A stretch of DNA of 64,000 bases from NCBI RefSeq assembly GCF_001458195.1, contig NZ_CYPU01000071.1, forward strand, positions 186,001 to 250,000, in the 5' to 3' direction. A program made the translations under genes and the position numbers. Position 1 is the stretch's first letter. Each line of letters starts with the position of its first letter. Below the pieces are notes generated by a model. It ran no database searches, was not told the DNA's origin, and was given only the letters and a program-made list of their open reading frames with translations. The stretch is from Ruegeria atlantica. Its GTDB lineage: Bacteria > Pseudomonadota > Alphaproteobacteria > Rhodobacterales > Rhodobacteraceae. Of this stretch, positions 40,980-56,820 are shown one piece after another.

Positions 40980-41582
40980 ATGGCGCGGCTGCTCTTGCGC
41001 GGGTTTGACATCAGAAAAGCCTATCTGGACGTTGCGGCACAAACGCAACTGATTGAGGCGTTGCGCCCGATTCTGAAATCGGCGCCGCTGTTCCGGCCTG
41101 TCACGCCTTCCGGCAAGGAAATGTCGGTGCGCATGACCTCAGCCGGAGCGTTTGGTTGGGTCACTGACAAAAGGGGGTACCGATATCAGGCGCAGCACCC
41201 TAAAGGAACGGTGTGGCCCGACATTCCTGATACGATACTGGGTATCTGGCGCAAGCTTGCCAGCACCCAACGCGATCCGGATTGCTGTCTGATCAACTAT
41301 TACAGCGAAGGTGCGCGCATGGGGCTGCATCAAGACAAGGACGAGGCCGATTTTTCTTGGCCTGTCCTGTCGATATCCCTGGGCGACGATGCCCTTTTCC
41401 GCATCGGAAACGAAACCCGGGGCGGCAAGACCGAGTCGATCTGGCTGAACTCCGGCGACGTCGTGGTCATGGGCGGCCCCGCCCGCCTGACCTACCATGG
41501 GGTAGACCGCATCCGTTTCGGTTCATCCAAACTGTTGCCCAAAGGCGGACGGATCAACCTGACCTTACGGGTGGCAAACTAG
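40980..41582 (+). CDS. alkB: Alpha-ketoglutarate-dependent dioxygenase AlkB
   Basis: Fe(II)/2-oxoglutarate enzyme that repairs 1-methyladenine and 3-methylcytosine in DNA and RNA by oxidative demethylation. The 200-residue protein has the iron-binding LHQDKDEADFSWPVLSISLG (His-x-Asp), the distal His in RLTYHGVDRI, and the 2-oxoglutarate Arg in GGRINLTLR. NYYSEGARMG is typical of the family. ATG 40980 is preferred, with GGGGA seven bases upstream. The stop codon is interleaved with that of the convergent permease gene (CTAG at 41579-41582). Confidence 0.95.
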   Translation: MARLLLRGFDIRKAYLDVAAQTQLIEALRPILKSAPLFRPVTPSGKEMSVRMTSAGAFGWVTDKRGYRYQAQHPKGTVWPDIPDTILGIWRKLASTQRDPDCCLINYYSEGARMGLHQDKDEADFSWPVLSISLGDDALFRIGNETRGGKTESIWLNSGDVVVMGGPARLTYHGVDRIRFGSSKLLPKGGRINLTLRVAN

Positions 41583-42400
41583 CGGCGTGCGCCCCAACTG
41601 GCCGACACATGCTGGCGGGTGTAAAAAATCCCCAGCAATCCAATTGTCAGCAATGCTAGGCCAACCCAAAGCGCGTATTCCCAACTGGAGTTACGTGGAA
41701 AGTAGTTACGAAAGATAAAACCACGGCATTGGTCAATTATGTGAAACAACGGGTTCCAGGCAAAGAAACTCAGCAAGAAGCCACCCAACGCATTCCCTAC
41801 AACCATTTTGCCCGAAAAAATCATGTTCATGCGTCGATACAAGTTTTTGAGAATTTCAGAAGTCCCGGGGAACCACGGCTTGAGCGCCATGAAAACAACG
41901 CCCACCGCGCATCCCGTAAACCAGGCCAGGATCAGCATATAGAACGCGCCGCCGGGCTCTTGGATCTCCAGCGGCTCAATTATGACGCTGTAGGCGAAGA
42001 GGATCACAAGGATCGAAACCAATTGCGTATAAAGCGATCCGAAGGCAGTCGCCAACAATGCGACCATCATATTCATCGGAGAATGTAGCATCATCGGGTT
42101 GTTTCCTGCAGCCACGCCAGCGACGGTCGAGACGGCTTTGATGTGAGTCAGGAACAGAAAGACACCTGATAAGAGAAACAGGATAAAGTTACCCCGGATC
42201 TTGGCCACACGTGTGCCCAACATCGACAAGATCAGATAAAAAACGGTCACAAGTGCGAGAATTTGCACGATATTGATGATGATCGCGATCACGGCATTCG
42301 CGTGTTTTGATCGTATCCCTTGCACAACCGCATGATAAACAAGCTCAGCAGTCGTGAAAGCGCTGCCCAAAAGCGTCTGTTTTCGCTTAAAATAAAACAC
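41579..42400 (-). CDS. Capsule/polysaccharide-type ABC-2 transporter permease (KpsM-like)
   Basis: A 273-residue inner-membrane protein with six hydrophobic segments and the ABC-2 exporter layout: an amphipathic N-terminal segment (MFYFKRKQTLLGSAFTTAEL), the central GAFYMLILAWFTGCAVGVVF, and the conserved C-terminal SFFAWNPLFHIIDQCRGF in which N-P-L-x-H-x-I-D-x-x-R is the KpsM/RkpT2 signature. The start is GTG 42400. No ATPase gene (KpsT) or other Kps gene is adjacent. It is divergent from cysQ. With KdsB, GalE, glycosyltransferases and a sulfotransferase nearby, export of a capsule-like polymer is likely. Confidence 0.85.
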   Translation of the reverse strand: MFYFKRKQTLLGSAFTTAELVYHAVVQGIRSKHANAVIAIIINIVQILALVTVFYLILSMLGTRVAKIRGNFILFLLSGVFLFLTHIKAVSTVAGVAAGNNPMMLHSPMNMMVALLATAFGSLYTQLVSILVILFAYSVIIEPLEIQEPGGAFYMLILAWFTGCAVGVVFMALKPWFPGTSEILKNLYRRMNMIFSGKMVVGNALGGFLLSFFAWNPLFHIIDQCRGFIFRNYFPRNSSWEYALWVGLALLTIGLLGIFYTRQHVSASWGARR

Positions 42401-42523
42401 TCAGTACACTCTTTCCCGCTGAACTGCCTGCAAACTGCCACGAAATTCTTGCCGTTTCGTAACCGCCGCATCATAAGGCCCACAAGGATTTCGATCAACA
42501 AACTACAGCAACGGAGCATTTTT

Positions 42524-43321
42524 GTGACCTATGACGCCCTTATTCCCGTAATCAGACGTCTGGCGCTGGAAGCCGGGGACACGATCATGCAGATCTACGA
42601 GGCGGATGATTTCGACGTCAAAGTCAAATCCGACGCCAGCCCCGTGACCGAAGCGGACGAGGCCGCCGATGCCCTGATTTCGGCGGGCTTACGTGCTGCA
42701 TTCCCGGAAATTCTGTTGGTGACCGAGGAGCAGGCTGCCTCACATTTGGAAAAAGGGGACACGTTTCTGATCGTCGATCCTCTGGACGGGACCAAGGAAT
42801 TCATCAACCGGCGTGGTGACTTCACGGTGAATATCGCGTTGGTCGAAAACGGTGTTCCAACCCGCGGCGTTGTTTATGCACCGGCCAAAGGGCGCATGTT
42901 CTACACCCAAGCGGACGGTCAATCGGTCGAAGAATCCGGCGCGCTTGACAAGGCGCAAGCTGGCGACGTGACCGTGATATTAGTGTCTGAACCAGACAAT
43001 TCAGCGTTGATGGTCGTCGCCTCAAAATCTCACCGCGATCAGGCGACCGAGGATTACATCAACAAATATCAGGTCAAAGACAGCAAAAGCGCGGGCTCGT
43101 CGCTGAAATTCTGTCTGGTCGCCACTGGCGAGGCGGACCTTTATCCCCGCGTCGGGCGCACGATGGAGTGGGATACAGCCGCTGGTCACGCCGTTTTGGC
43201 CGGTGCCGGTGGCAAGGTTGTTCGCTTCGATGACCACACGCCGCTGACCTATGGCAAGGACGGCTATGCAAACCCGTTCTTTATCGCCTACGCTCCGGGC
43301 GTTGACCTGAAGGAGGCCTGA
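42524..43321 (+). CDS. cysQ: 3'(2'),5'-bisphosphate nucleotidase CysQ
   Basis: Hydrolyses adenosine 3',5'-bisphosphate (PAP) to AMP, relieving product inhibition of PAPS-using enzymes. The 265-residue protein of the inositol monophosphatase fold has metal-binding motifs ASPVTEADEAADALI, VDPLDGTKEFINRRGDFTVN and EWDTAAGHAVLAGAGG. GTG 42524 has GGAG seven bases upstream; the frame open to 42320 overlaps the permease gene. The stop codon overlaps kdsB ATG by one base (TGATG). A sulfotransferase encoded 6 kb downstream would be a source of PAP. Confidence 0.93.
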   Translation: MTYDALIPVIRRLALEAGDTIMQIYEADDFDVKVKSDASPVTEADEAADALISAGLRAAFPEILLVTEEQAASHLEKGDTFLIVDPLDGTKEFINRRGDFTVNIALVENGVPTRGVVYAPAKGRMFYTQADGQSVEESGALDKAQAGDVTVILVSEPDNSALMVVASKSHRDQATEDYINKYQVKDSKSAGSSLKFCLVATGEADLYPRVGRTMEWDTAAGHAVLAGAGGKVVRFDDHTPLTYGKDGYANPFFIAYAPGVDLKEA

Positions 43322-44121
43322 TGTCTGTTCTGATTGCGATCCCTGCACGCTATGCCTCGACCCGTTACCCAGGAAAGCCGCTGGTTCCGCTGACCGGGGC
43401 AAATGGCAATGCGATGACCCTGATAGAACGATCCTGGCGCGCCGCCTGTTCCGTATCGGGTGTAGACAAAGTGGTTGTCGCCACCGATGACGACCGCATT
43501 CGCGACGTGGCCCAAGGGTTCGGGGCCGAAGTGGTGATGACATCCGTGACCTGCGGGAATGGCACAGAACGCTGCGCCGAGTCGCATACTGCGCTGGGCG
43601 CTGGCTATGAGATCGTCGTTAACCTGCAGGGGGACGCCCCGCTAACCCCTCATTGGTTTGTCGAAGACCTAATCGCTGGTCTGCGCGCTGCACCTGAGGC
43701 TGGTGTTGCCACCCCGGTTCTGCGCTGCGACGGCGATGCTCTGAACAGCCTGCTGAACGATCGCAAACATGGGCGCGTTGGAGGCACCACCGCTGTGTTC
43801 GAAGCCGATCACAGCGCGATGTATTTCTCGAAAGAGGTCGTGCCTTTTACCGCAGAAACGTTTTCTGGCGACAAGCCGACCCCGGTGTTCCACCATGTCG
43901 GCGTCTACGCGTATCGCCCCGATGCTCTTGCCGCCTATCCAACATGGCCTGTGGGACCGTTGGAACAGCTGGAAGGGTTGGAACAGCTGCGGTTTATGGA
44001 AAACGGTCGAAAGGTTCTGTGCGTCGAGGTCGAGGCCAGGGGGCGTCAGTTCTGGGAGTTGAACAATCCGCAGGATGTGCCGAAACTCGAAGAGATGATG
44101 GCCGCGATGGGGTTGGATTGA
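43321..44121 (+). CDS. kdsB: 3-deoxy-manno-octulosonate cytidylyltransferase (CMP-Kdo synthetase)
   Basis: Activates Kdo with CTP. The 266-residue protein has the nucleotide-binding loop IPARYASTRYPGKPLVPLTG, VVVATDDDRI, VNLQGDAPLTP, FHHVGVYAYRPDAL and a C-terminal EQLRFMENGRKVLC. The family serves LPS core synthesis and, as KpsU, the Kdo linker of group 2 capsules; this copy may be either. Coupled to cysQ by TGATG. Its pairing with cysQ in front of galE and transferase genes supports a surface-polymer role. Confidence 0.94.
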   Translation: MSVLIAIPARYASTRYPGKPLVPLTGANGNAMTLIERSWRAACSVSGVDKVVVATDDDRIRDVAQGFGAEVVMTSVTCGNGTERCAESHTALGAGYEIVVNLQGDAPLTPHWFVEDLIAGLRAAPEAGVATPVLRCDGDALNSLLNDRKHGRVGGTTAVFEADHSAMYFSKEVVPFTAETFSGDKPTPVFHHVGVYAYRPDALAAYPTWPVGPLEQLEGLEQLRFMENGRKVLCVEVEARGRQFWELNNPQDVPKLEEMMAAMGLD

Positions 44122-44191
44122 ACCTTTTTCCGCTGAAATTTCGTCCAAGACATCATCTACCTGAGCGCGGTACTACAATTCGGAACGAATT

Positions 44192-45175
44192 ATGAAAAAC
44201 ATTCTTGTGACCGGTGGCGCCGGGTACATTGGATCTCATGCATGCAAAGCGCTGTCTCGGGCAGGGTACATACCGGTCACTTTCGACAATCTGGTAACTG
44301 GTTGGCAAGACGCGGTGAAATTCGGGCCCTTTGAACAGGGCGATCTGCTGGATCGCGCCCGGCTGGAGGAAGTGTTCGCCAAGTATGAACCCGTGGCGGT
44401 GATGCACTTTGCAGCCCTCAGCCAGGTGGGCGAGGCGATGTCCGAGCCCGGTAAATACTGGTCGAACAATGTGACTGGTTCGCTGAATTTGATTGAAGCC
44501 GCAGTTGCCGCCGGATGTGAGAACTTTGTCTTCTCGTCCACCTGCGCCACCTATGGCGAGCATGACAATGTGGTACTGGACGAAGACACGCCGCAACTGC
44601 CGCTGAACGCATACGGCGCCTCAAAACGTGCCATCGAAGATATCCTGCGCGATTTCGAGGCCGCGCACGGGCTGAACCACGTGATCTTCCGGTATTTCAA
44701 CGTGGCCGGTGCCGACCCTGATGGCGAGGTGGGCGAGTTCCACCGCCCGGAAACCCACCTTGTGCCGCTGATGCTGGACGCCATCGACGGCAAGCGCGAC
44801 GGGCTGACCGTTTTTGGGACGGACTACGAAACACCAGACGGCACCTGCATCCGCGATTATGTACATGTTTGCGATCTGGTCGATGCCCACGTTTTGGGAT
44901 TGAACTGGTTGGAACAAGGCAAAGACAGCCGCGTCTTCAACCTGGGCACCGGATCGGGGTTTTCGGTGATGGAGGTGATCAGCCACTCCAACGCCGTCAC
45001 CAACCGCGACGTGCCTTATGCAATCGGACCGCGCCGGGCTGGGGATTGCACAAAGTTGGTCTCGGGTTCTGTGCGCGCTGGCGAGGAACTTGGATGGTCG
45101 CCCAAAAGGTCCACATTAGAGACGATGATTGCCGATGCGTGGCGCTGGCATCAGAACGGCCATTACGAAAAATGA
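44192..45175 (+). CDS. galE: UDP-glucose 4-epimerase GalE
   Basis: Interconverts UDP-glucose and UDP-galactose with bound NAD. The 327-residue SDR protein opens VTGGAGYIGSHACKALSRAG, then DNLVTGWQDAVKFG, the catalytic SSTCATYG and YGASKRAIEDIL (Tyr-x3-Lys), and RDYVHVCDLVDAH. It lies 70 bases after kdsB and eight bases before the first GT2-type gene, and so probably supplies UDP-galactose (or UDP-GalNAc) for the transferases downstream. Confidence 0.93.
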   Translation: MKNILVTGGAGYIGSHACKALSRAGYIPVTFDNLVTGWQDAVKFGPFEQGDLLDRARLEEVFAKYEPVAVMHFAALSQVGEAMSEPGKYWSNNVTGSLNLIEAAVAAGCENFVFSSTCATYGEHDNVVLDEDTPQLPLNAYGASKRAIEDILRDFEAAHGLNHVIFRYFNVAGADPDGEVGEFHRPETHLVPLMLDAIDGKRDGLTVFGTDYETPDGTCIRDYVHVCDLVDAHVLGLNWLEQGKDSRVFNLGTGSGFSVMEVISHSNAVTNRDVPYAIGPRRAGDCTKLVSGSVRAGEELGWSPKRSTLETMIADAWRWHQNGHYEK

Positions 45176-45182
45176 GCCTATT

Positions 45183-46241
45183 GTGACTGGTACAGGGGAA
45201 GAAACGCTTCCGCCCATCTCATGGGTGCAAATGTACAAGTTGCGGCTAAAACGGCAGCGATTGTTGTGGCGGTCCTTTCGCAGCCGCCATCAATTGTCCA
45301 GTCTGAGCGACCGCACGGCGAACATCATACCTAGTGGTATTCTGGCCTTCACCACGCTGCGCAATGAAATCACCCGCCTGCCCTGGTTCCTGCGCCATTA
45401 TCGTGCATTGGGGGTTGATCACTTTCTGATCGTCGACAACGACAGCGACGATGGCTCGGTGCCCTTTCTCAGGAAACAGCCGGACGTGTCACTGTGGCAG
45501 ACCCGGGACAGCTATCGCATGTCGCGCTATGGGCTGGATTGGCTGACTTGGTTGCAAATGTGCTATGGGCACCACCACTGGACTCTGATGGTCGATGCGG
45601 ATGAGTTGTTGATTTACCCCAATCATGACACCCGGCCCCTACCGGACCTGACGAAATGGTTAGATGATCAGGGACGTGTAGCGTTTGGCGCGCTGATGCT
45701 GGATCTTTATCCCAATGGCCCGCTGGGGGAACAAGGCTATGATCCTGAAAACGACCCGACCGAGGTGGTGAGTTGGTTTGATGCCGCCCCCTACCGCGCA
45801 CAACGGCAAAGCCCGCTGGGCAACCTTTGGGTGCAGGGCGGCGCGCGCGAGCGTATGTTCTTTGCCGACGCCCCACGCCGATCCCCGACGCTTAACAAAA
45901 TCCCGTTGGTCCGGTGGTCGCGGCGCTACGCCTATGTGAATTCGTGCCATTCCGCATTGCCACGACATCTGAACGCCAGTTACGGAGGGCCCGGCGGCAC
46001 AGCACCATCTGGTGTTTTGTTGCACACCAAATTCCTGCCCGAAGTTGTGGAAAAATCAAAGATCGAGAAAGAGCGCCGGCAACACTTTCACGATCCCGAA
46101 CAGTTTGCAGACTACTATGACGGCATCACGGATCGCCCCGCCATGTGGGCGCCAGAGTCCAAGCGATACACCGGTTGGAACTCATTGCAGCAACTGGGTC
46201 TGATGGGAACAATTGATTGGGAAAGCCACAACTCAAACTAA
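45183..46241 (+). CDS. Glycosyltransferase family 2-type protein (Glyco_tranf_2_4-like), copy 1
   Basis: A 352-residue transferase. The GT-A-type core is seen in GILAFTTLRNEITRLPWFLR, FLIVDNDSDDGSVPFLRKQP and MVDADELLIYPNHDTRPLPD, where D-A-D-E is the metal-binding motif. This arrangement (R-N-E, V-D-N-x-S-x-D-G-S, D-x-D-E) marks the Glyco_tranf_2_4 group. A paralogue of the gene at 46353. The start is taken as GTG 45183; ATG 45231 would give a shorter protein. No membrane helix is evident, so it is probably cytosolic. Donor and acceptor are unknown. Confidence 0.8.
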   Translation: MTGTGEETLPPISWVQMYKLRLKRQRLLWRSFRSRHQLSSLSDRTANIIPSGILAFTTLRNEITRLPWFLRHYRALGVDHFLIVDNDSDDGSVPFLRKQPDVSLWQTRDSYRMSRYGLDWLTWLQMCYGHHHWTLMVDADELLIYPNHDTRPLPDLTKWLDDQGRVAFGALMLDLYPNGPLGEQGYDPENDPTEVVSWFDAAPYRAQRQSPLGNLWVQGGARERMFFADAPRRSPTLNKIPLVRWSRRYAYVNSCHSALPRHLNASYGGPGGTAPSGVLLHTKFLPEVVEKSKIEKERRQHFHDPEQFADYYDGITDRPAMWAPESKRYTGWNSLQQLGLMGTIDWESHNSN

Positions 46242-46352
46242 CGGTTTTTAAAGTCGTTGCTTCGAAAGATGGAAAAATGGCATAAAACGGCAATTGTCCG
46301 GTACCACTCTGGCTTGTAAAGGCTCCGGGCACGCTCGCGTAAATAACAAAGG

Positions 46353-47375
46353 TTGGGCAGTCGCGTGGGCCTATTGGATTCATACCGAATGAGATTGCGG
46401 CGTAAGCGCCGTTTATTGCGTTGCCTTCGAAAGCGGCGCGACCTTGTTCCCGTTTCCGTAAATACAAATTCGATAACACGGAAAGACGTCCTGCTAGTCA
46501 GCGTCATACGGAATGAGAAAATTCGCCTGCCGTATTTTCTGACCTACTACCGGCAGCTGGGCATCAACCATTTTCTGTTCGTTGATAACGCCAGCAATGA
46601 CGGATCACTGGAATATCTGGCGGGTCAACCCGATGTGTCGGTCTGGCGCGCTGATGCAAGCTATAGACGTGCGTCGTTTGGGGTGGACTGGACAAACTAT
46701 CTGTTGCGCAAATATGCGCACCGCCACTGGGTTCTGACCGTCGACCCGGACGAATTCTTCATCTATCCATTCTGCGATACCCGGCCGATCCGCGCCCTGA
46801 CTGACTGGCTGGACGGCTGCGCCGTGCGCAGCTTCAGTGCAATGCTGATCGACATGTATCCCGAAGGGCCGGTCGAAGACGCCATCTATTCCGAGGGGCA
46901 AAACCCGTTCGAAATCGCCAAATGGTTTGATGCAGGAAATTATACGATCACAAAGAACCCGACATACGGAAATCTCTGGATTCAAGGCGGACCCCGCGCG
47001 CGCGTGTTCTTTAAGGACACGCCGAAAAAAGCGCCTGCGCTGAACAAGATTCCGTTGGTGAAATGGGACAAGCGCTATGTCTATGTCAGCTCGACCCATG
47101 CGCTGCTGCCACGCGGGTTGAACAAGGTGTTTGATGAATGGGGTGGCGAAAAAACAAGCGGTGCGTTGTTGCACGCCAAACTCATCAGCACACTGGGCGA
47201 GAAGGCCCAGGAAGAGATGGAGCGCGGCCAGCATTACCGCAGCTCTGGGGAATATCGCGCCTATGCCGAACATTTGGCAGACATGCCCGAGTTCTGGTGC
47301 GACAAGTCCGAAGCTTATATCAACTGGCGACAACTTGAGATTTTAGGCCTCATGTCAAAAGGAAACTGGGCATGA
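46353..47375 (+). CDS. Glycosyltransferase family 2-type protein (Glyco_tranf_2_4-like), copy 2
   Basis: A 340-residue paralogue of the upstream gene. Shared motifs: VIRNEKIRLPYFLTYYRQLG, FLFVDNASNDGSLEYLAGQP, TVDPDEFFIYPFCDTRP (D-P-D-E), NPTYGNLWIQGGPRARVFF and PALNKIPLVKWDKRYVYVSS. The N-terminal Arg-rich segment (RMRLRRKRRLLRCLRKRR) resembles that of copy 1, so tandem duplication is the simplest explanation. The start is uncertain: TTG 46353 or GTG 46365, both with weak ribosome sites. The stop overlaps the next gene by ATGA. Confidence 0.78.
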   Translation: MGSRVGLLDSYRMRLRRKRRLLRCLRKRRDLVPVSVNTNSITRKDVLLVSVIRNEKIRLPYFLTYYRQLGINHFLFVDNASNDGSLEYLAGQPDVSVWRADASYRRASFGVDWTNYLLRKYAHRHWVLTVDPDEFFIYPFCDTRPIRALTDWLDGCAVRSFSAMLIDMYPEGPVEDAIYSEGQNPFEIAKWFDAGNYTITKNPTYGNLWIQGGPRARVFFKDTPKKAPALNKIPLVKWDKRYVYVSSTHALLPRGLNKVFDEWGGEKTSGALLHAKLISTLGEKAQEEMERGQHYRSSGEYRAYAEHLADMPEFWCDKSEAYINWRQLEILGLMSKGNWA

Positions 47376-49072
47376 GCAATCTGGGCATCATTATGCTGGT
47401 TCACACCGCGCTGAACCGTGCCGGGCAAGTGGCCCGCCACTGGACGTCTTCGGGGTGCCCGGTGGTGATCCATGTGGACCGCAAGGTGCCAAACAAGGTC
47501 TATGCGGAATTCGTTGCCGCCTGTGCGAATGACCCGCTGATCCGGTTTTCTGACCGTCATGTCTGCAACTGGGGTGGGTGGGGCATCGTTGCCGCCTCGC
47601 AATCTGCCGCCGCACTGATGCTTGAGACATTTCCCGATGTCCGCCATGTTTTCCTGACTTCGGGGTCCTGTCTTCCTTTGCGGCCAGTGGATGAACTGGT
47701 CAATTACCTCTCGGACAGGCCGCGCGTGGATTTCATTGAAAGCGCCACTACCTCTGATGTGAGCTGGACCATCGGAGGCTTGGATCAGGAACGCTTTACC
47801 CTGAGATTTCCGTTCTCGTGGCGCAAGAACCGCAAACTGTTTGACGCCTATGTGAAACTGCAACGCGCGTTGCGCATTCGACGCCACATACCCGAAGGGC
47901 TTGTGCCGCATATGGGTAGCCAGTGGTGGTGTCTGACCCGCCAAACTCTGTCGGCCATATTGCAGGATCCAAAACGCGAGACCTATGATCGGTATTTTCG
48001 GCGCGTCTGGATACCTGACGAAAGCTACTTCCAGACGCTAGCGCGCCTGTATTCCACCCATATCGAAAGCCGGTCTCTGACACTGTCCAAGTTCGACTAT
48101 CAGGGTCGTCCGCATATTTTCTATGACGATCACCTGCAGCTACTGCGCAGGTCCGACTGTTTTGTTGCCCGCAAAGCCTGGCCTAACGCGGATCGCCTGT
48201 ATCAAGCCTTTCTAACCGATCAGGCCGGCGCCATGAAACCCACAGAGCCCAACCCAAGCAAAATTGACCGGGTGTTTTCCAAAGCGGTCGAACGGCGCAC
48301 ACGTGGGCGTGACGGGTTGTACATGCAAAGCCGGTTTCCACGGCACGGCAACGAAAACGGGCTGACGTCCTCTCCGTATTCGGTTTTTCAGGGCTTTTCC
48401 GAAGTGTTCGAAGATTTTGAACCCTGGTTGAGCAACATCACCGGCGCGCGTATCCACGGGCATCTGTTTCACCCGAAGCGCGCTGAATTCGCTGGAGGAG
48501 AAACCATCGTCAACGGCGGCCTCAGCGATTGCGCAAAGCTGCGGGACTACAACCCAACGGCTTTCCTTTCGAACCTGATCTGGAACACGCGCGGCGAAAA
48601 ACAGTGTTTTCAGTTCGGCCCCGCGGACACGCAAGAAATCAACTGGCTTCTGGCTCGGGACAAGAATGCGCTGATTTCAGTCATAACCGGGGCCTGGGCG
48701 ATTCCGCTGTTTCGATCAAACCTAAACTTTGCCGATATCCGCGCCGAGGCCGCGCGGCTGCAGCAGATCGAAACCAAGCAACTGGAAATCCTGTCTTCTG
48801 TCTGGACCAAGGCGCGGGTTCGCAAGTGGACACTGGCAGAATTCGTTGAATCTCCGGTCGAGCCATTGCAGACCGCGGTCGAGGATACCGGAACCACCCA
48901 AACCAGCCACCTGACCGAAGCACCAAAAATGGTGGATCTGTCAGGGTTCGGACAGTTCCTGCAAAACCTAAAGAACCAGGGGATGCACCCTTATCTGATG
49001 GGCGATTTCCCACCGGATGACAGTTTTGCCGACCGGGTCCGGCCATATCGAAAACCCTATCTGGTGCAGTAA
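47372..49072 (+). CDS. Beta-1,6-N-acetylglucosaminyltransferase-like (GT14/Branch) protein with C-terminal DUF5928-type region
   Basis: A 566-residue protein. The first 260 residues form a GT14 Branch-type domain: IIMLVHTALNRAGQVARHW, PVVIHVDRKVPNKVYAEF, HVFLTSGSCLPLRPVDELVN and QWWCLTRQTLSAIL, where S-G-S-C-L-P-L resembles the S-G-x-D-x-P-L signature of core-2/I-branching and xylosyltransferases. The remaining 300 residues are a separate region I associate with the DUF5928 found fused to such enzymes in Rhodobacteraceae. It is coupled to copy 2 by ATGA and ends six bases before the sulfotransferase gene. Donor specificity is unproven. Confidence 0.75.
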   Translation: MSNLGIIMLVHTALNRAGQVARHWTSSGCPVVIHVDRKVPNKVYAEFVAACANDPLIRFSDRHVCNWGGWGIVAASQSAAALMLETFPDVRHVFLTSGSCLPLRPVDELVNYLSDRPRVDFIESATTSDVSWTIGGLDQERFTLRFPFSWRKNRKLFDAYVKLQRALRIRRHIPEGLVPHMGSQWWCLTRQTLSAILQDPKRETYDRYFRRVWIPDESYFQTLARLYSTHIESRSLTLSKFDYQGRPHIFYDDHLQLLRRSDCFVARKAWPNADRLYQAFLTDQAGAMKPTEPNPSKIDRVFSKAVERRTRGRDGLYMQSRFPRHGNENGLTSSPYSVFQGFSEVFEDFEPWLSNITGARIHGHLFHPKRAEFAGGETIVNGGLSDCAKLRDYNPTAFLSNLIWNTRGEKQCFQFGPADTQEINWLLARDKNALISVITGAWAIPLFRSNLNFADIRAEAARLQQIETKQLEILSSVWTKARVRKWTLAEFVESPVEPLQTAVEDTGTTQTSHLTEAPKMVDLSGFGQFLQNLKNQGMHPYLMGDFPPDDSFADRVRPYRKPYLVQ

Positions 49073-49078
49073 AGATAA

Positions 49079-50524
49079 ATGACGCCCCAATTTGACTATT
49101 TTATCATTCTTGCAGCCATGCGGACCGGTTCCAACCTGCTTGAGGCGAACCTGAACGCCATCGAAGGGGTCACCAGCTATGGCGAGGCGTTCAATCCCCA
49201 TTTCATCGGGCGCTTAAAATCCGACACTCTGCTGGGCATCTCGGTGGAAGAGCGGGATCGTAACCCTTCCACATTGCTTGAGGCAATCCGGCAGGCACCA
49301 GGGGAACTGAACGGGTTTCGCCTTTTTCAGGGACATGATCCACGTGTGTTAGAGCCAGCTTTGGGCGATCCGCGCTGCGCCAAGATCATTCTGACCCGAA
49401 ACCCTCTGGACAGCTTCATCTCGTTGAAGATTGCGCGCGAAACCAAGCAGTGGCAGCTGAAAAATATCAAGCGTCGTCGCGAAGCGCGGGTTGAGTTCGA
49501 TGCCGAAGCGTTCATGAAATACCTGAACCGGCAGCATGAATACCACCTGATGCTGTCGCAGCGTTTGCAGCAAAGCGGCCAGACCCCATTTTACATTGCC
49601 TATGAAGACCTGAACCAGGTGCACCTTCTGAATGGTCTTGCCGCCTGGTTGGGTGTGTCAGGCAGGCTGTCGGCGATCGACGAAACACTCAAACCGCAAA
49701 ACCCCGAGCCGGCGCTGGCGAAAGTGACGAACCCCGATGAGTTGGAGCAGGCGTTGTCACAGATCGACAGCTTCAACCTGCACAGCACTCCGAATTTCGA
49801 ACCACGCCGACGTCCATTGGTTGCGAATTACGTTGCCGCACCAAAGACACCGCTGATGTACATGCCCATCCGCGGGGGAATGGAAAGTCCGGTAACAAGG
49901 TGGATGGCCGCGCTGGACCATGTTGATGTCGAGCAATTGCTGACCAATCAGAACAGGAAACAGACGCGTCAGTGGTTTCTTTCCAATCCCGGGCATCGAA
50001 AGTTCGCCGTGCTGCAACACCCATTGGCGCGCGCGCATCGGGCCTTTTGCAGACATATCCTCAACACAGGTTCCGGCGCCTATCCGAAAATCCGACACGT
50101 CCTGCGCAACCGGTTAAAGATTCCGATCCCCGGACAATTGCGTGATGGCAATTACCCGGTTGAGCAGCATTACGAGGCGTTTTCCGCTTTCCTGACATTC
50201 CTGCGCCAGAATCTTGCCCTACAGACCGCCATACGCGTGGATGCGGCATGGTGCAGTCAGTCGCAGGCCCTTGAGGGGATGGCGCCCTTCGCATTGCCCG
50301 ACCTGATCCTGAGGGAGGATGAGGTCACGACAGCCCTGCCCGACCTGGCGCGCCGGATGGGGCACAGCACACCGCCCCTACCCGAACTCAGTGAACCGGA
50401 TTCCCCGTTCACTCTGGCTGAGATTTATGACGACAAACTGGAAACGCTAGCCGCCCAGGCCTACCAGCGTGACTATATGAAGTTCGGATTTGAGTCTTGG
50501 AAACCGATTAGGGGCGCAGAGTAA
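49079..50524 (+). CDS. Tandem-domain sulfotransferase (Stf0/NodH-like N-domain, sulfotransferase-2-like C-domain)
   Basis: A 481-residue protein. Residues 7-235 form a PAPS-dependent sulfotransferase: the 5'-phosphosulfate loop AAMRTGSNLLEANL at 12-25 and the 3'-phosphate-binding ILTRNPLDSFISLKIARETK at 104-123, as in NodH/Stf0. Residues 258-440 look like a second, divergent sulfotransferase domain (MYMPIRGGMESPVTRWM, then VLQHPLARAHRAFCRHIL), as in the family-2 transferases. It follows the GT14 gene by six bases, so it probably sulfates the same glycan. The 3' end overlaps the convergent L,D-transpeptidase gene by 17 bases. Confidence 0.82.
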   Translation: MTPQFDYFIILAAMRTGSNLLEANLNAIEGVTSYGEAFNPHFIGRLKSDTLLGISVEERDRNPSTLLEAIRQAPGELNGFRLFQGHDPRVLEPALGDPRCAKIILTRNPLDSFISLKIARETKQWQLKNIKRRREARVEFDAEAFMKYLNRQHEYHLMLSQRLQQSGQTPFYIAYEDLNQVHLLNGLAAWLGVSGRLSAIDETLKPQNPEPALAKVTNPDELEQALSQIDSFNLHSTPNFEPRRRPLVANYVAAPKTPLMYMPIRGGMESPVTRWMAALDHVDVEQLLTNQNRKQTRQWFLSNPGHRKFAVLQHPLARAHRAFCRHILNTGSGAYPKIRHVLRNRLKIPIPGQLRDGNYPVEQHYEAFSAFLTFLRQNLALQTAIRVDAAWCSQSQALEGMAPFALPDLILREDEVTTALPDLARRMGHSTPPLPELSEPDSPFTLAEIYDDKLETLAAQAYQRDYMKFGFESWKPIRGAE

Positions 50525-53152: not shown

Positions 53153-54985
53153 TTATTCCGCAGCCTCGGCCTGAATGAACCCGCCTGACTGACGATGCCA
53201 GAACCGGGCATACAGCCCACCCTGGTCCAACAACGCGTCATGTGTGCCGGTTTCCACGATACGCCCTTGGTCCAGGACAATAATCCGGTCCATCTCGCTG
53301 AGTGTGGACAACCGATGCGCGATAGCCAGAACCGTCTTGCCTTGCATCACCCGATGCAAAGCCGTCTGGATCGAGGCCTCAACCTCGGAGTCCAGTGCCG
53401 AGGTTGCCTCATCCAGCACCAATATAGGCGCATCCTTGAGGATGGCGCGCGCCAACGCGATCCGCTGACGCTGACCACCGCTAAGCTTCACTCCGCGCTC
53501 GCCCAGATGTGCTTCATAGCCGGTGCGTCCGTGGGCATCCTGAAGGCTGAGGATGAATTCATGCGCCTCGGCCTTTTTGGCCGCCTCGATCATTTCCTCT
53601 TCCGAGGCGTCAGGGCGGCCGTAAAGAATATTCTCCCGCGCCGACCGATTGAACATCGCGGTTTCCTGCGTGACCATGCCGATCTGACGGCGCAAGCTGT
53701 CCTGCGTTATTCCGGATACGTCCTGACCATCTATCAAGATCGTGCCCTTTTCACCGTCGTACAGGCGCAACAGCAGCGAAACCAAGGTTGATTTCCCTGC
53801 CCCCGAAGCGCCGACAATGCCCAGTTTCTCGCCGGGGTGCACGGTCATGTTCAGGCCTGATACACCGCCAACATCCCGACCGTAGGCAAAGCTGACATGG
53901 TCAAAGGTGATCTGGCCTTCGAGCACGGACAACTCCGCCGCGCCCGTTTGATCCTCAACCCGTTCACGCTTGGCCAGCGTATTCATGCCGTTCTCGATCT
54001 CGCCAACATTGGCGTAAAGACCCATGAGGGTGAAACTGACCCAGCCTGTCATCTGGGCAATTCGGATGGAAATGGCACCTGCGGCCACAATGTCACCGGC
54101 TGTCGCAGACCCCGCTTGCCACAGCCACAGCGTTGCACCTATCAGCAAAACCGGCAGAACCCCGGCCAACAGCATCAAGATAAAGCGGAAACTGGCCGAC
54201 AGGCTTCCGAACGCCAACATCTTTTCTCGCAGATCAACCATGGAATTCCGCGCGGCCTGATCTTCGAAGTCAGAGTGGGCAAACAGTTTAACGGTTTTGA
54301 TATTGGTGATCGTGTCGACGACTTGCCCGGACACCATCGCGCGAGCGCCTGCCCGCGCCGCTGAGCGTTTACGGATGCGCGGCAGATACCAACGGACAAG
54401 CAGGAAATACACAACCAGCCAAGCCGCAAATGGCAGCATAACCAGCGGATGAATAGACCCTAACAAAAGCAATGAGCCCGCCAGCGAGGCCAAGGCAAAC
54501 ACGATCGCACTAATCGTCTCGGATACCACCGACGCCATCGCGTTGGATGTTTGCATCTGCTTCTGCGCGATCCGCCCTGCAAAATCGTCGTCAAAATAGG
54601 TGACCGACTGGCCCAGCGTCCACCGGTTCAGCTTGGCCAGAACCAACGGCGTGATATTGGGCATGACGATATAGTTGTTGGTCAACGACGAAAGCCCGAA
54701 CAGGGCTGGCCGCAGTAGCATGAAAAACGCAACGACCCCAAGGATCATCCAGACGTTGTTGGCGGTCAGAAAGTTCTCGGGTCCGCTTGTGGTTGCTGCG
54801 TCAATGACCAGGCCCAGCATCCACGCAGTGCCCGCCTCCATCGCACCCGCAGTAGCCGAGAAAAACGCCGCGACGAAGATCATTGGCCATGCGCCAGACA
54901 GGCACCAGCGAATGAACGCCCCCAGCGATTGCGGCGGGGGCGTTTCGATGTTTTTGAACGGGTTTATGAGGTCGGCAATCCTCAT
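53153..54985 (-). CDS. ABC transporter ATP-binding/permease protein (heterodimeric exporter, subunit 2)
   Basis: A 610-residue fused exporter half. Residues 30-330 form the six-helix transmembrane domain and residues 345-600 the ATPase, with Walker A GASGAGKSTLVSLLLRLYDG, signature LSGGQRQRIALARAILK, Walker B ILVLDEATSALDSEVEASIQ and the H-loop IAHRLSTLSEM. ATG 54985 overlaps the stop of the upstream gene (ATGA). Together with that gene it forms a heterodimeric MsbA-like exporter. The substrate is unknown. Confidence 0.92.
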   Translation of the reverse strand: MRIADLINPFKNIETPPPQSLGAFIRWCLSGAWPMIFVAAFFSATAGAMEAGTAWMLGLVIDAATTSGPENFLTANNVWMILGVVAFFMLLRPALFGLSSLTNNYIVMPNITPLVLAKLNRWTLGQSVTYFDDDFAGRIAQKQMQTSNAMASVVSETISAIVFALASLAGSLLLLGSIHPLVMLPFAAWLVVYFLLVRWYLPRIRKRSAARAGARAMVSGQVVDTITNIKTVKLFAHSDFEDQAARNSMVDLREKMLAFGSLSASFRFILMLLAGVLPVLLIGATLWLWQAGSATAGDIVAAGAISIRIAQMTGWVSFTLMGLYANVGEIENGMNTLAKRERVEDQTGAAELSVLEGQITFDHVSFAYGRDVGGVSGLNMTVHPGEKLGIVGASGAGKSTLVSLLLRLYDGEKGTILIDGQDVSGITQDSLRRQIGMVTQETAMFNRSARENILYGRPDASEEEMIEAAKKAEAHEFILSLQDAHGRTGYEAHLGERGVKLSGGQRQRIALARAILKDAPILVLDEATSALDSEVEASIQTALHRVMQGKTVLAIAHRLSTLSEMDRIIVLDQGRIVETGTHDALLDQGGLYARFWHRQSGGFIQAEAAE

Positions 54986-56820
54986 TCAGCGGCCTCCGGA
55001 TTCAGGAAGCCCCCAGATTGCCGCGCCCAGAACTGGGCGTAAAGCCCACCTTGCGCCAACAGTTCGGAATGGCCGCCTTCTTCGACGATCCGACCACCAT
55101 CCATGACCAGAATACGGTCCATCTGCGCGATGGTGCTCAGCCGGTGGGCAATGGCGATCACGGTTTTTCCTTGCATCATACCGTAGAGAGTTTCCTGAAT
55201 TGACGCTTCGACCTCGGAATCTAGAGCGGATGTCGCCTCGTCCAACAGCAAAATGGGTGCGTCCTTCAGGATCACCCGCGCCAGCGTCACGCGCTGCCGC
55301 TGACCACCGGACAGTTTCACACCCCGCTCGCCCACATGCGCATCATACCCCGTGCGCCCTTCTGGGTCTTGCAGATCAAGGATGAACTCATGCGCCTCAG
55401 CCTGTTTGGCGGCGGCAATCATCTGTTCTTCGGTGGCATCGGGGCGACCATAGAGGATGTTGTCACGCACCGACCGATGCAACAGGGCGCTGTCCTGCTG
55501 AACCATACCGATATGGCTGCGCAAACTGTCCTGCGTGACCCTGGAAATGTCCTGACCGTCAATCAGGATCGCGCCCTGTTCAACGTCGTAAAACCGCAAA
55601 AGCAACTTAACTAGGGTCGATTTTCCCGCACCGGACCGCCCGATCAGACCGATCTTTTCGCCCGGATTGAGGGTCAGATTGATGTGATCCAGCCCGCCGG
55701 TCTTGCGACCGTAATGGTGTGACAGATCACGGATGTCGATCTGACCCTTGCTCAACTGCAAGGGCTTGGCATTCGGCACATCCAACAGGTCAACGGGCTG
55801 GGCAATGGTCTGCATGCCTTCGGCCACGACACCAAGCTGACGGAAGAAGCTGGTCAGCGCCCACATGATCCATCCGGTCATCGCGTTCAGTCGCAGGGTC
55901 AAAGCAGTCGCCGCCGCAACGACACCCACAGATGCACTCCCTTGCATCCACAGAGAAATGGCCCAACCAACCACGCCGACGATCAGCAAACCGTTCAGAG
56001 CGACCAGTACCGCATCCATTATGGTGAAAATCCGCATTTCGACCTGAAAGGTACGACGCGTTTCTTCAATGGCTTCGCGGGCATAGTCCAACTCTTGTTC
56101 GTTATGGGCGAACATCTTGACCGAATGGATGTTGGTATAGCTGTCCACCACCCGACCCGTCACAGCCGAGCGCGCATCGGACGCAGCCTGCGAAGCCGGA
56201 CCCACCCTTTTCACCGTCCAGCGCACCAGTATGGCGTAAAGCGCAAACCAGATCAGCAGTGGCAACAGCAACCGTGGATCCGCCGCCATCAACAGGATCG
56301 CAGCGCCAATCAGATAGGCAATCGAAAATGAGATGGCGTCAAACACCTGAAACACGGCCTCGCCTGCGGCAGGCGGCGTTTGCATGATCCGATTGGCAAT
56401 GCGACCGGCAAAATCATTCTCGAACCAACCGACGGATTGGCGCAGAACGTGTTTGTGGGCACGCCAGCGGATCAGGGTGCCAAAGTTCGGTAGGATCGTG
56501 TTGTTTAACAACAGCACATCCACGACATGCAGCATCGGGCGCAGCAGCAGCACAAACGCCGCGACCAGGATAAACTCGGTGCCGTGGTTCTGCCAGACCT
56601 CGGCCGGAGGGCCCGACAGCAGGTCAACCACCCGGCCCATGTAGTAAATCAGGCCAACTTCAACTGCCGCAACAACGACAGAGATTAAACCAGCCCAGAA
56701 GAACACCCGCATGAACGGTTGCGAGTAATCCAGCATGAACGGCCACAACCGCGTCGGCGGCGTGTCGGTTTCCTTGTAGGCAACAAAAGGGTCAACGAGG
56801 TTTTCGAAATAGCGAAACAT
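54982..56820 (-). CDS. ABC transporter ATP-binding/permease protein (heterodimeric exporter, subunit 1)
   Basis: A 612-residue fused exporter half, a paralogue of the next gene. The N-terminal transmembrane domain spans residues 25-335; the ATPase has Walker A GRSGAGKSTLVKLLLRFYD, signature LSGGQRQRVTLARVILK, Walker B ILLLDEATSALDSEVEASIQ and IAHRLSTIAQM. GGAG precedes ATG 56820. Translational coupling suggests a heterodimer with the 53153 protein. Lipid-A-like or drug export is possible; the sequence does not decide. Confidence 0.92.
   Translation of the reverse strand: MFRYFENLVDPFVAYKETDTPPTRLWPFMLDYSQPFMRVFFWAGLISVVVAAVEVGLIYYMGRVVDLLSGPPAEVWQNHGTEFILVAAFVLLLRPMLHVVDVLLLNNTILPNFGTLIRWRAHKHVLRQSVGWFENDFAGRIANRIMQTPPAAGEAVFQVFDAISFSIAYLIGAAILLMAADPRLLLPLLIWFALYAILVRWTVKRVGPASQAASDARSAVTGRVVDSYTNIHSVKMFAHNEQELDYAREAIEETRRTFQVEMRIFTIMDAVLVALNGLLIVGVVGWAISLWMQGSASVGVVAAATALTLRLNAMTGWIMWALTSFFRQLGVVAEGMQTIAQPVDLLDVPNAKPLQLSKGQIDIRDLSHHYGRKTGGLDHINLTLNPGEKIGLIGRSGAGKSTLVKLLLRFYDVEQGAILIDGQDISRVTQDSLRSHIGMVQQDSALLHRSVRDNILYGRPDATEEQMIAAAKQAEAHEFILDLQDPEGRTGYDAHVGERGVKLSGGQRQRVTLARVILKDAPILLLDEATSALDSEVEASIQETLYGMMQGKTVIAIAHRLSTIAQMDRILVMDGGRIVEEGGHSELLAQGGLYAQFWARQSGGFLNPEAAE

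Follow-up and report, generated by a model that had tools for sequence, protein, structure and literature searches.

An eight-gene block of Ruegeria atlantica as a probable part of a dispersed pathway for a sulfated capsule-type glycan

The window analyzed here is a stretch of 64,000 nucleotides of Ruegeria atlantica, which sits on contig C71 of a 4.8-Mb genome (G000). At positions 41579-50524 it carries a block of eight genes for a permease, sugar enzymes, transferases and a sulfotransferase. Together with genes at two other places of the genome it appears to make up a single pathway for a sulfated, capsule-type surface glycan, a pathway present in nearly all sampled members of the family Rhodobacteraceae.

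Genes of the block and their predicted products

A sequence-only reading of the window had placed the eight genes at this position. All of them are present there in the sequence of the window's genome, and each is backed by models or homologues:

41579..42400, minus strand: KpsM-like ABC-2 (ATP-binding cassette) permease, 273 amino acids (aa); NCBIfam KpsM 31.9 bits and VexB 30.0, both far below cut-off
42524..43321, plus strand: cysQ, 3'(2'),5'-bisphosphate nucleotidase; TIGR01331 270 bits, above cut-off; Pfam Inositol_P
43321..44121, plus strand: kdsB, CMP-Kdo (3-deoxy-D-manno-octulosonic acid) synthetase; NF003950 346.6 bits, above cut-off; Pfam CTP_transf_3
44192..45175, plus strand: galE, UDP-glucose 4-epimerase; TIGR01179 415 bits, above cut-off; Pfam Epimerase
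45231..46241, plus strand: gt2A, Glyco_tranf_2_4 transferase, variable slot; PF13704
46365..47375, plus strand: gt2B, Glyco_tranf_2_4 transferase, constant slot; PF13704
47372..49072, plus strand: gt14, a glycosyltransferase (GT) of type GT14 (Branch, residues 32-242) fused to DUF5927 (residues 267-566); Pfam, DUF5927 510 bits
49079..50524, plus strand: sulT, tandem sulfotransferase with a NodH/Stf0-like N domain and a Sulfotransfer_2-like C domain

The gene overlaps noted in the same reading were recovered for cysQ/kdsB (1 base) and gt2B/gt14 (4 bases). Likely starts, as judged from sequence, are GTG at 42524 for cysQ, ATG at 45231 for gt2A and GTG at 46365 for gt2B. Scans of the region gave 5 promoter-like sites for 4.9 expected, which is no excess, and 5 terminator-like sites for 11.4 expected. 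The permease matched no Pfam family and its 31.9 bits compare with an NCBIfam KpsM cut-off of 300; to judge from its sequence, it is a distant KpsM relative. KdsB scores marginally below the cut-off of TIGR00466 and above that of the KdsB subfamily model NF003950. The nearest named relatives of the GT14 protein are those of Ruegeria sp. Alg231-54 and A3M17, with 98 % identity.

By its modelled fold, the product of sulT is a sulfotransferase. A sulfotransferase fold of the N domain and conserved motifs for binding 3'-phosphoadenosine 5'-phosphosulfate (PAPS) were found, and R15-T-G-S-N19, R107 and S115 are invariant in all of 37 orthologues. The nearest solved relative of the N domain is 9vki, a protein of 264 aa named lipopolysaccharide (LPS) sulfotransferase NodH. 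Compared with such NodH/Stf0 carbohydrate sulfotransferases, sulT has an extra, putative Sulfotransfer_2-type domain, its orthologues being about 463-500 aa long. In Pfam, the Sulfotransfer matches of the window's copy are all below cut-off; PF03567 was matched in the C half of 31 of the 37 orthologues, the window's own copy not among them, and a search of PDB sequences with the C half gave no match. An origin of the two halves by duplication is unsupported (profile comparison probability 3.9 %). The motif of the C domain at residues 313-317 (window 50015-50029) is QHP in the window's copy and RHP in 35 of the 37 orthologues, only the window and locus L098 deviating. Because of this replacement the second domain may be weakened in the window's sublineage. 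A sulfotransferase, not compared with sulT, is also named in an alga-associated roseobacter, in the available part of PMC3230580.

For the GT14 protein, both the Branch domain and the GT14 fold were confirmed. The DUF5927 region is a low-confidence part of the predicted structure; neither profiles nor PDB sequences gave a match, and its assignment as a further sulfotransferase or GT domain is unsupported. The open-licence part of PMC holds no mention of 'DUF5927', and no account of the block could be recognised there by title or abstract start.

Conservation across the family

The distribution of the block was analyzed in an order-level sample of 292 genomes (112 genera), every one of which is listed under the family of the window. 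DUF5927 (PF19349) is present in 283 of these genomes and 106 genera, nearly always as a single copy, and absent from 14 control genomes. A model of the whole sulT protein (A3, E <= 1e-40) matched 278 genomes in 105 genera, and in none of the 292 was sulT found without DUF5927. Among 289 genomes sampled across the class (E <= 1e-20), the matches listed include full-length sulT in 4, all of the window's own family, and in none of the remaining 285; one other genome matches the N domain alone, with 76 bits.

Gene order was read in two sets of loci. The first comprises 60 loci, one per genus, picked from the best-scoring DUF5927 matches listed, so that divergent genera are under-represented; some of them are cut or rearranged. 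The second comprises 80 named loci, the best 80 of at least 582, which skews it to well-conserved members. Conservation of gene order had been proposed as a check by the sequence-only reading, and it holds: gt2B, gt14 and sulT stand together in 60/60 and 80/80 loci, so that their neighbourhood is not due to chance. In a further set of 3.9-kb loci sulT is missing from 2 of 30. The other genes are less constant among the one-per-genus loci (cysQ 56, KpsM-like 54, kdsB 40, galE 39, gt2A 27), and the slot of gt2A holds, according to Pfam, a GT4-type gene in 31 of the 60. The usual order in relatives is the KpsM-like gene on the minus strand, then cysQ, kdsB, an optional GT2 gene, galU, galE, an optional GT4 or GT2_4 gene, GT2_4, GT14-DUF5927 and sulT. 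In most relatives the block faces ptsN, hpf, lptB, lptA, lptC, kdsD and rnd, neighbour names which were verified by models at one locus (L047). Of the 80 named loci, 23 form the window's own group; there the lpt side is replaced by ykuD and an ion channel gene, and galU is absent at the locus, the window's genome not having been searched for galU elsewhere. At L167 the rnd-lptC-lptA-lptB-hpf-ptsN block is inverted and placed behind sulT.

Two genomes of the family, G221 and G239, have lost sulT, with ptsN following about 40 bases behind gt14, and keep kpsM, cysQ, kdsB, galU and the transferases. This fits a view of sulfation as a late decoration. It also argues against the earlier suggestion that CysQ is dedicated to this sulfation: cysQ is kept in both genomes and is probably a housekeeping gene. 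Loci L246 and L247, where sulT is missing, galE was not found either and the rest of the block is kept, offer a natural experiment on sulfation.

Capsule genes elsewhere in the genome

The sequence-only reading had listed KpsC, KpsS, KpsT, KpsE, KpsD and a PAPS-synthesis gene as missing from the block and had proposed to look for the Kps genes in the whole genome. All of them turned up elsewhere in the same genome, so that the components of an ABC capsule system (KpsM/KpsT, KpsE/KpsD, KpsS/KpsC) are all found there by homology. On contig C31, kpsS, a KpsD/Wza-like gene and kpsC are adjacent, flanked by ribE-type and ribD genes. Proteins of the KpsC/KpsS type (PF05159) occur in all 39 DUF5927-positive genomes searched, and the kpsS-kpsD-kpsC trio in all of 20 genomes read in regions chosen by their PF05159 matches. 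All 20 genomes searched for it have a KpsE-like protein, in no case above the curated cut-off; kpsT overlaps or adjoins kpsE in all 20 and kdsA lies beside them in 12 (one site per genome, the longer KpsE being taken where two occurred). Scores above cut-off were obtained for KdsA at this site and, in Pfam, for KpsC (PF05159, 241 bits, with no KpsC-named NCBIfam match), KpsS (PF05159) and KpsD (Poly_export, 60 bits). NCBIfam gave KpsS 225 bits for a cut-off of 600 and KpsD at best 122.6 for 333; KpsE reached 170 bits with TIGR01010 (cut-off 437.5) and KpsT 96 bits with its best model, VexC (cut-off 313).

The kpsT-kpsE pair, the trio and the block occupy three separate genomic places. Relatives of the window's KpsM were found by tblastn and profile in none of the 20 trio and 20 kpsT-kpsE loci, as opposed to 54 of the 60 block loci. 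In 5 of 20 genomes (G000, G033, G162, G182 and G030) the window permease or its orthologue is the sole match of the KpsM model. G189 has no match with this weak model, yet a KpsM-like gene was found at its block locus. A second KpsE/KpsM pair was seen in several genomes (G233:C27, G066:C14, G021:C16 and others), and such pairs probably belong to an accessory capsule. The PAPS-synthesis gene is an APS (adenosine 5'-phosphosulfate) kinase gene; PAPS supply is uninformative as evidence, an APS kinase being present in 40/40 genomes, block-negatives included.

Joint absence of KpsM-like, KpsC/S, DUF5927 and sulT was examined with a DUF5927-negative set of 10 genomes, the nine without the domain and G075, which has a weak match (E 1e-8). 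The KpsM-like protein (model A2) exceeds 280 bits in 11 of 11 DUF5927-positives and stays at or below 45 bits in all ten negatives (Fisher p 2.8e-6, shared ancestry not corrected). All 49 positives (39 + 10) have KpsC/S above 100 bits, as have 3 of the 10 negatives (Fisher p 3.5e-7, likewise uncorrected for shared ancestry); of the seven other negatives, four have no match and three weak ones. SulT is missing from all ten negatives and from four positives (G059, G198, G221 and G239). Both the permease and KpsC/S are therefore associated with the block across genomes. Since parts differ inside genera, G060 (g36) being without those present in G058 and G065, and G094 (g51) and G075 (g23) without those present in G263 and G031 respectively, these contrasts suggest separate losses.

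One explanation would see the block genes as neighbours by shared descent only: cysQ, kdsB and galE would be housekeeping genes, and the transferases and sulT would make an unrelated glycan or glycolipid without the Kps exporter. Several results speak for it, namely the retention of cysQ where sulT is lost, the finding that 14 of 48 informative loci have kdsB elsewhere, and the wide spread of the order together with distances that partly track those of neighbour genes. In Mantel comparisons 19 of 30 reached p <= 0.05 (for instance gt14 and hpf, r 0.45; kpsM and hpf, r 0.59), which gives a mixed picture of chromosomal inheritance; for kdsB it was 1 of 5, and the dnaK tests include 7-9 loci only. 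Such a reading does not account for the several genera in which the KpsM-like protein, strong KpsC/S, DUF5927 and sulT are missing together, and we regard it as quite improbable.

A predicted sulfated capsule and its rivals

Kdo supply bears on a second alternative. A capsule-dedicated, KpsU-like KdsB had been suggested by the sequence-only reading, which counted a sole kdsB serving LPS against itself; the sole copy is what we find, since each of 39 genomes has one kdsB above cut-off, with a single match in G000 and a second match in G123 that falls short of the cut-off (200.6 bits for 234). WaaA-type proteins are also present in 39/39, and because of this KdsB probably feeds LPS as well as the KpsS/C primer. 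The genes kdsB and kdsD stand about 10 kb apart. Of 48 informative one-per-genus loci, 32 have both of them at the block, 13 have neither there and 3 have only one; of 40 informative named loci, 19 have both, 7 neither, and 14 kdsB without kdsD. Joint movement of the two genes is clear in the first set and not in the second. That the 13 loci with neither gene reflect a lost Kdo synthesis is rejected, kdsB being found genome-wide in all 39 genomes, those 13 included.

With kdsB single-copy, WaaA universal and the block beside lptBAC and kdsD in most relatives, an LPS role for the block is possible. It would then make a sulfated part of the LPS core or O-chain, the LPS region would explain kdsB, kdsD and lptBAC, and the permease would export O-chain or be unrelated; the name of 9vki points in the same direction. 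This reading would not predict the absence of the KpsM-like protein in 10/10 and of strong KpsC/S in 7/10 block-less genomes, nor that the block stays in the 13 of 48 loci where kdsB and kdsD are both away. We consider it unlikely, if less so than neighbourhood by descent alone.

The sequence data make it fairly probable, in our view, that the block encodes the assembly steps of a capsule pathway of the ABC-transporter-dependent (group 2/3-like) kind, whose genes are divided among three conserved places and whose product is Kdo-anchored, Kps-exported and sulfated. The presence, order, family-wide conservation and joint absence of the parts and the folds of the sulT N domain and the GT14 domain are observed; the capsule reading would join these parts in one pathway and predicts the lipid anchor, the sugars and the sulfation. 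KdsD, KdsA and KdsB would provide CMP-Kdo, from which KpsS and KpsC would build a beta-Kdo primer on lipid. The GT2_4 enzymes and the GT14-DUF5927 enzyme would then add sugars, with UDP-sugars supplied by GalE and, in most relatives, GalU beside it; the two-domain sulT would sulfate the glycan from PAPS, and the KpsM-like permease would export it with KpsT, KpsE and KpsD. An assembly scheme of KpsS, KpsC, transition transferases, polymerase and export is given in the available part of PMC11666461.

Several points weigh against this capsule pathway. Most Kps model scores (KpsM, KpsS, KpsE, KpsT, KpsD) lie below curated cut-offs, and the KpsM model finds an additional match in 14 of 20 genomes, strong or weak, often by a second KpsE. 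The DUF5927-negative genomes G110, G227 and G141 retain strong KpsC/S, which can therefore serve other capsules; the Fisher values disregard shared ancestry, and KpsT and KpsE lay outside the search of the negatives. To these are added the single kdsB alongside universal WaaA-type proteins, and the lptBAC and kdsD genes beside the block in most relatives. No polymerase was identified for the block glycan, so its product could be a short oligosaccharide.

As a prediction, the earlier proposal of a sulfated glycan that is linked to Kdo and exported by an ABC transporter has good support, because the order is conserved, Kps genes and APS kinase are present, the block is accompanied across genomes by the permease and KpsC/S, and sulT has the expected fold; its dedicated KdsB and CysQ are not supported. 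A bolder version, in which the Rhodobacteraceae share a near-invariant, doubly sulfated Kdo-anchored glycan made by a three-place capsule machine that single-locus tools would overlook and whose enzymes include a bifunctional sulfotransferase of two domains and a GT14-DUF5927 synthase of a new kind, is tentative and rather doubtful.

Comparison with known systems

Capsule loci are usually compact and strain-variable, and the E. coli group 2 capsule genes comprise KpsSC, KpsMT, KpsDE and KpsU/KpsF. By homology, the system described here has a matching set of export and Kdo-primer genes (the E. coli list is given in part in the available text of PMC5542703). It differs in that no dedicated KpsU was found, the genes are dispersed, the content is near-constant and not serotype-variable, and scores are mostly below cut-offs. 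According to the available part of the same source, CapsuleFinder models require a single locus, with 'loner' gene exceptions; a three-place Kps system does not follow this rule and would for that reason probably be missed.

The sequence-only reading knew of no described system of this composition, a statement that is not supported. In the available part of PMC11766843, Cobetia marina KMM 1449 has a group 3 locus with kpsETMD, kpsSC, cysN/C-D-Q and sulfotransferase genes, and a capsule shown by chemistry to be sulfated. Vibrio sp. KMM 8419, in the available part of PMC11641403, has a single cluster that combines Kps genes (no kpsC) with those for PAPS and sulfotransferases, again with a sulfated capsule determined chemically. 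The likeness to Cobetia extends to KpsE/T/M/D, KpsS/C, PAPS genes with cysQ and sulfotransferases; as far as that source goes, its locus is a single cluster in which about 70 genes, those for rhamnose and mannose among them, lie together, and its assembly region varies among strains. The system predicted here is instead spread over three separate, conserved places, includes the GT14-DUF5927 fusion and a tandem sulfotransferase, and is near-universal in the family. The capsule of Rhodobacter capsulatus that binds the gene-transfer agent is likewise a capsule of a related bacterium; its export genes are wzc, wzb and wza (PMC10218006, table 1, in the available part), a different route, and identity of the two systems is rejected.

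Sulfated Kps capsules are thus already known, and what is new is the scatter over three places, the near-invariance and the enzymes (tandem sulfotransferase, GT14-DUF5927). If the capsule pathway is real, a widespread bacterial family would have a common sulfated coat, about 100 genera of the sample keeping the pathway nearly unchanged. Such a coat would matter for the receptors of phages and gene-transfer agents, for algal attachment and for marine sulfur chemistry, and single-locus surveys would undercount ABC capsules.

Two observations concern sequences outside the block. Downstream of it, at window 53153-56820, lie two neighbouring ABC-exporter-like genes (610 and 612 aa), each combining permease and ATPase as judged by eye. 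A plasmid search with the GT14 protein returned 17 records, all below 60 % identity and none covering 80 %. Among Paracoccus plasmids, NZ_CP102356.1 and NZ_CP102353.1 carry a GT14-like protein annotated DUF5928, a type that may be sister to that of DUF5927.

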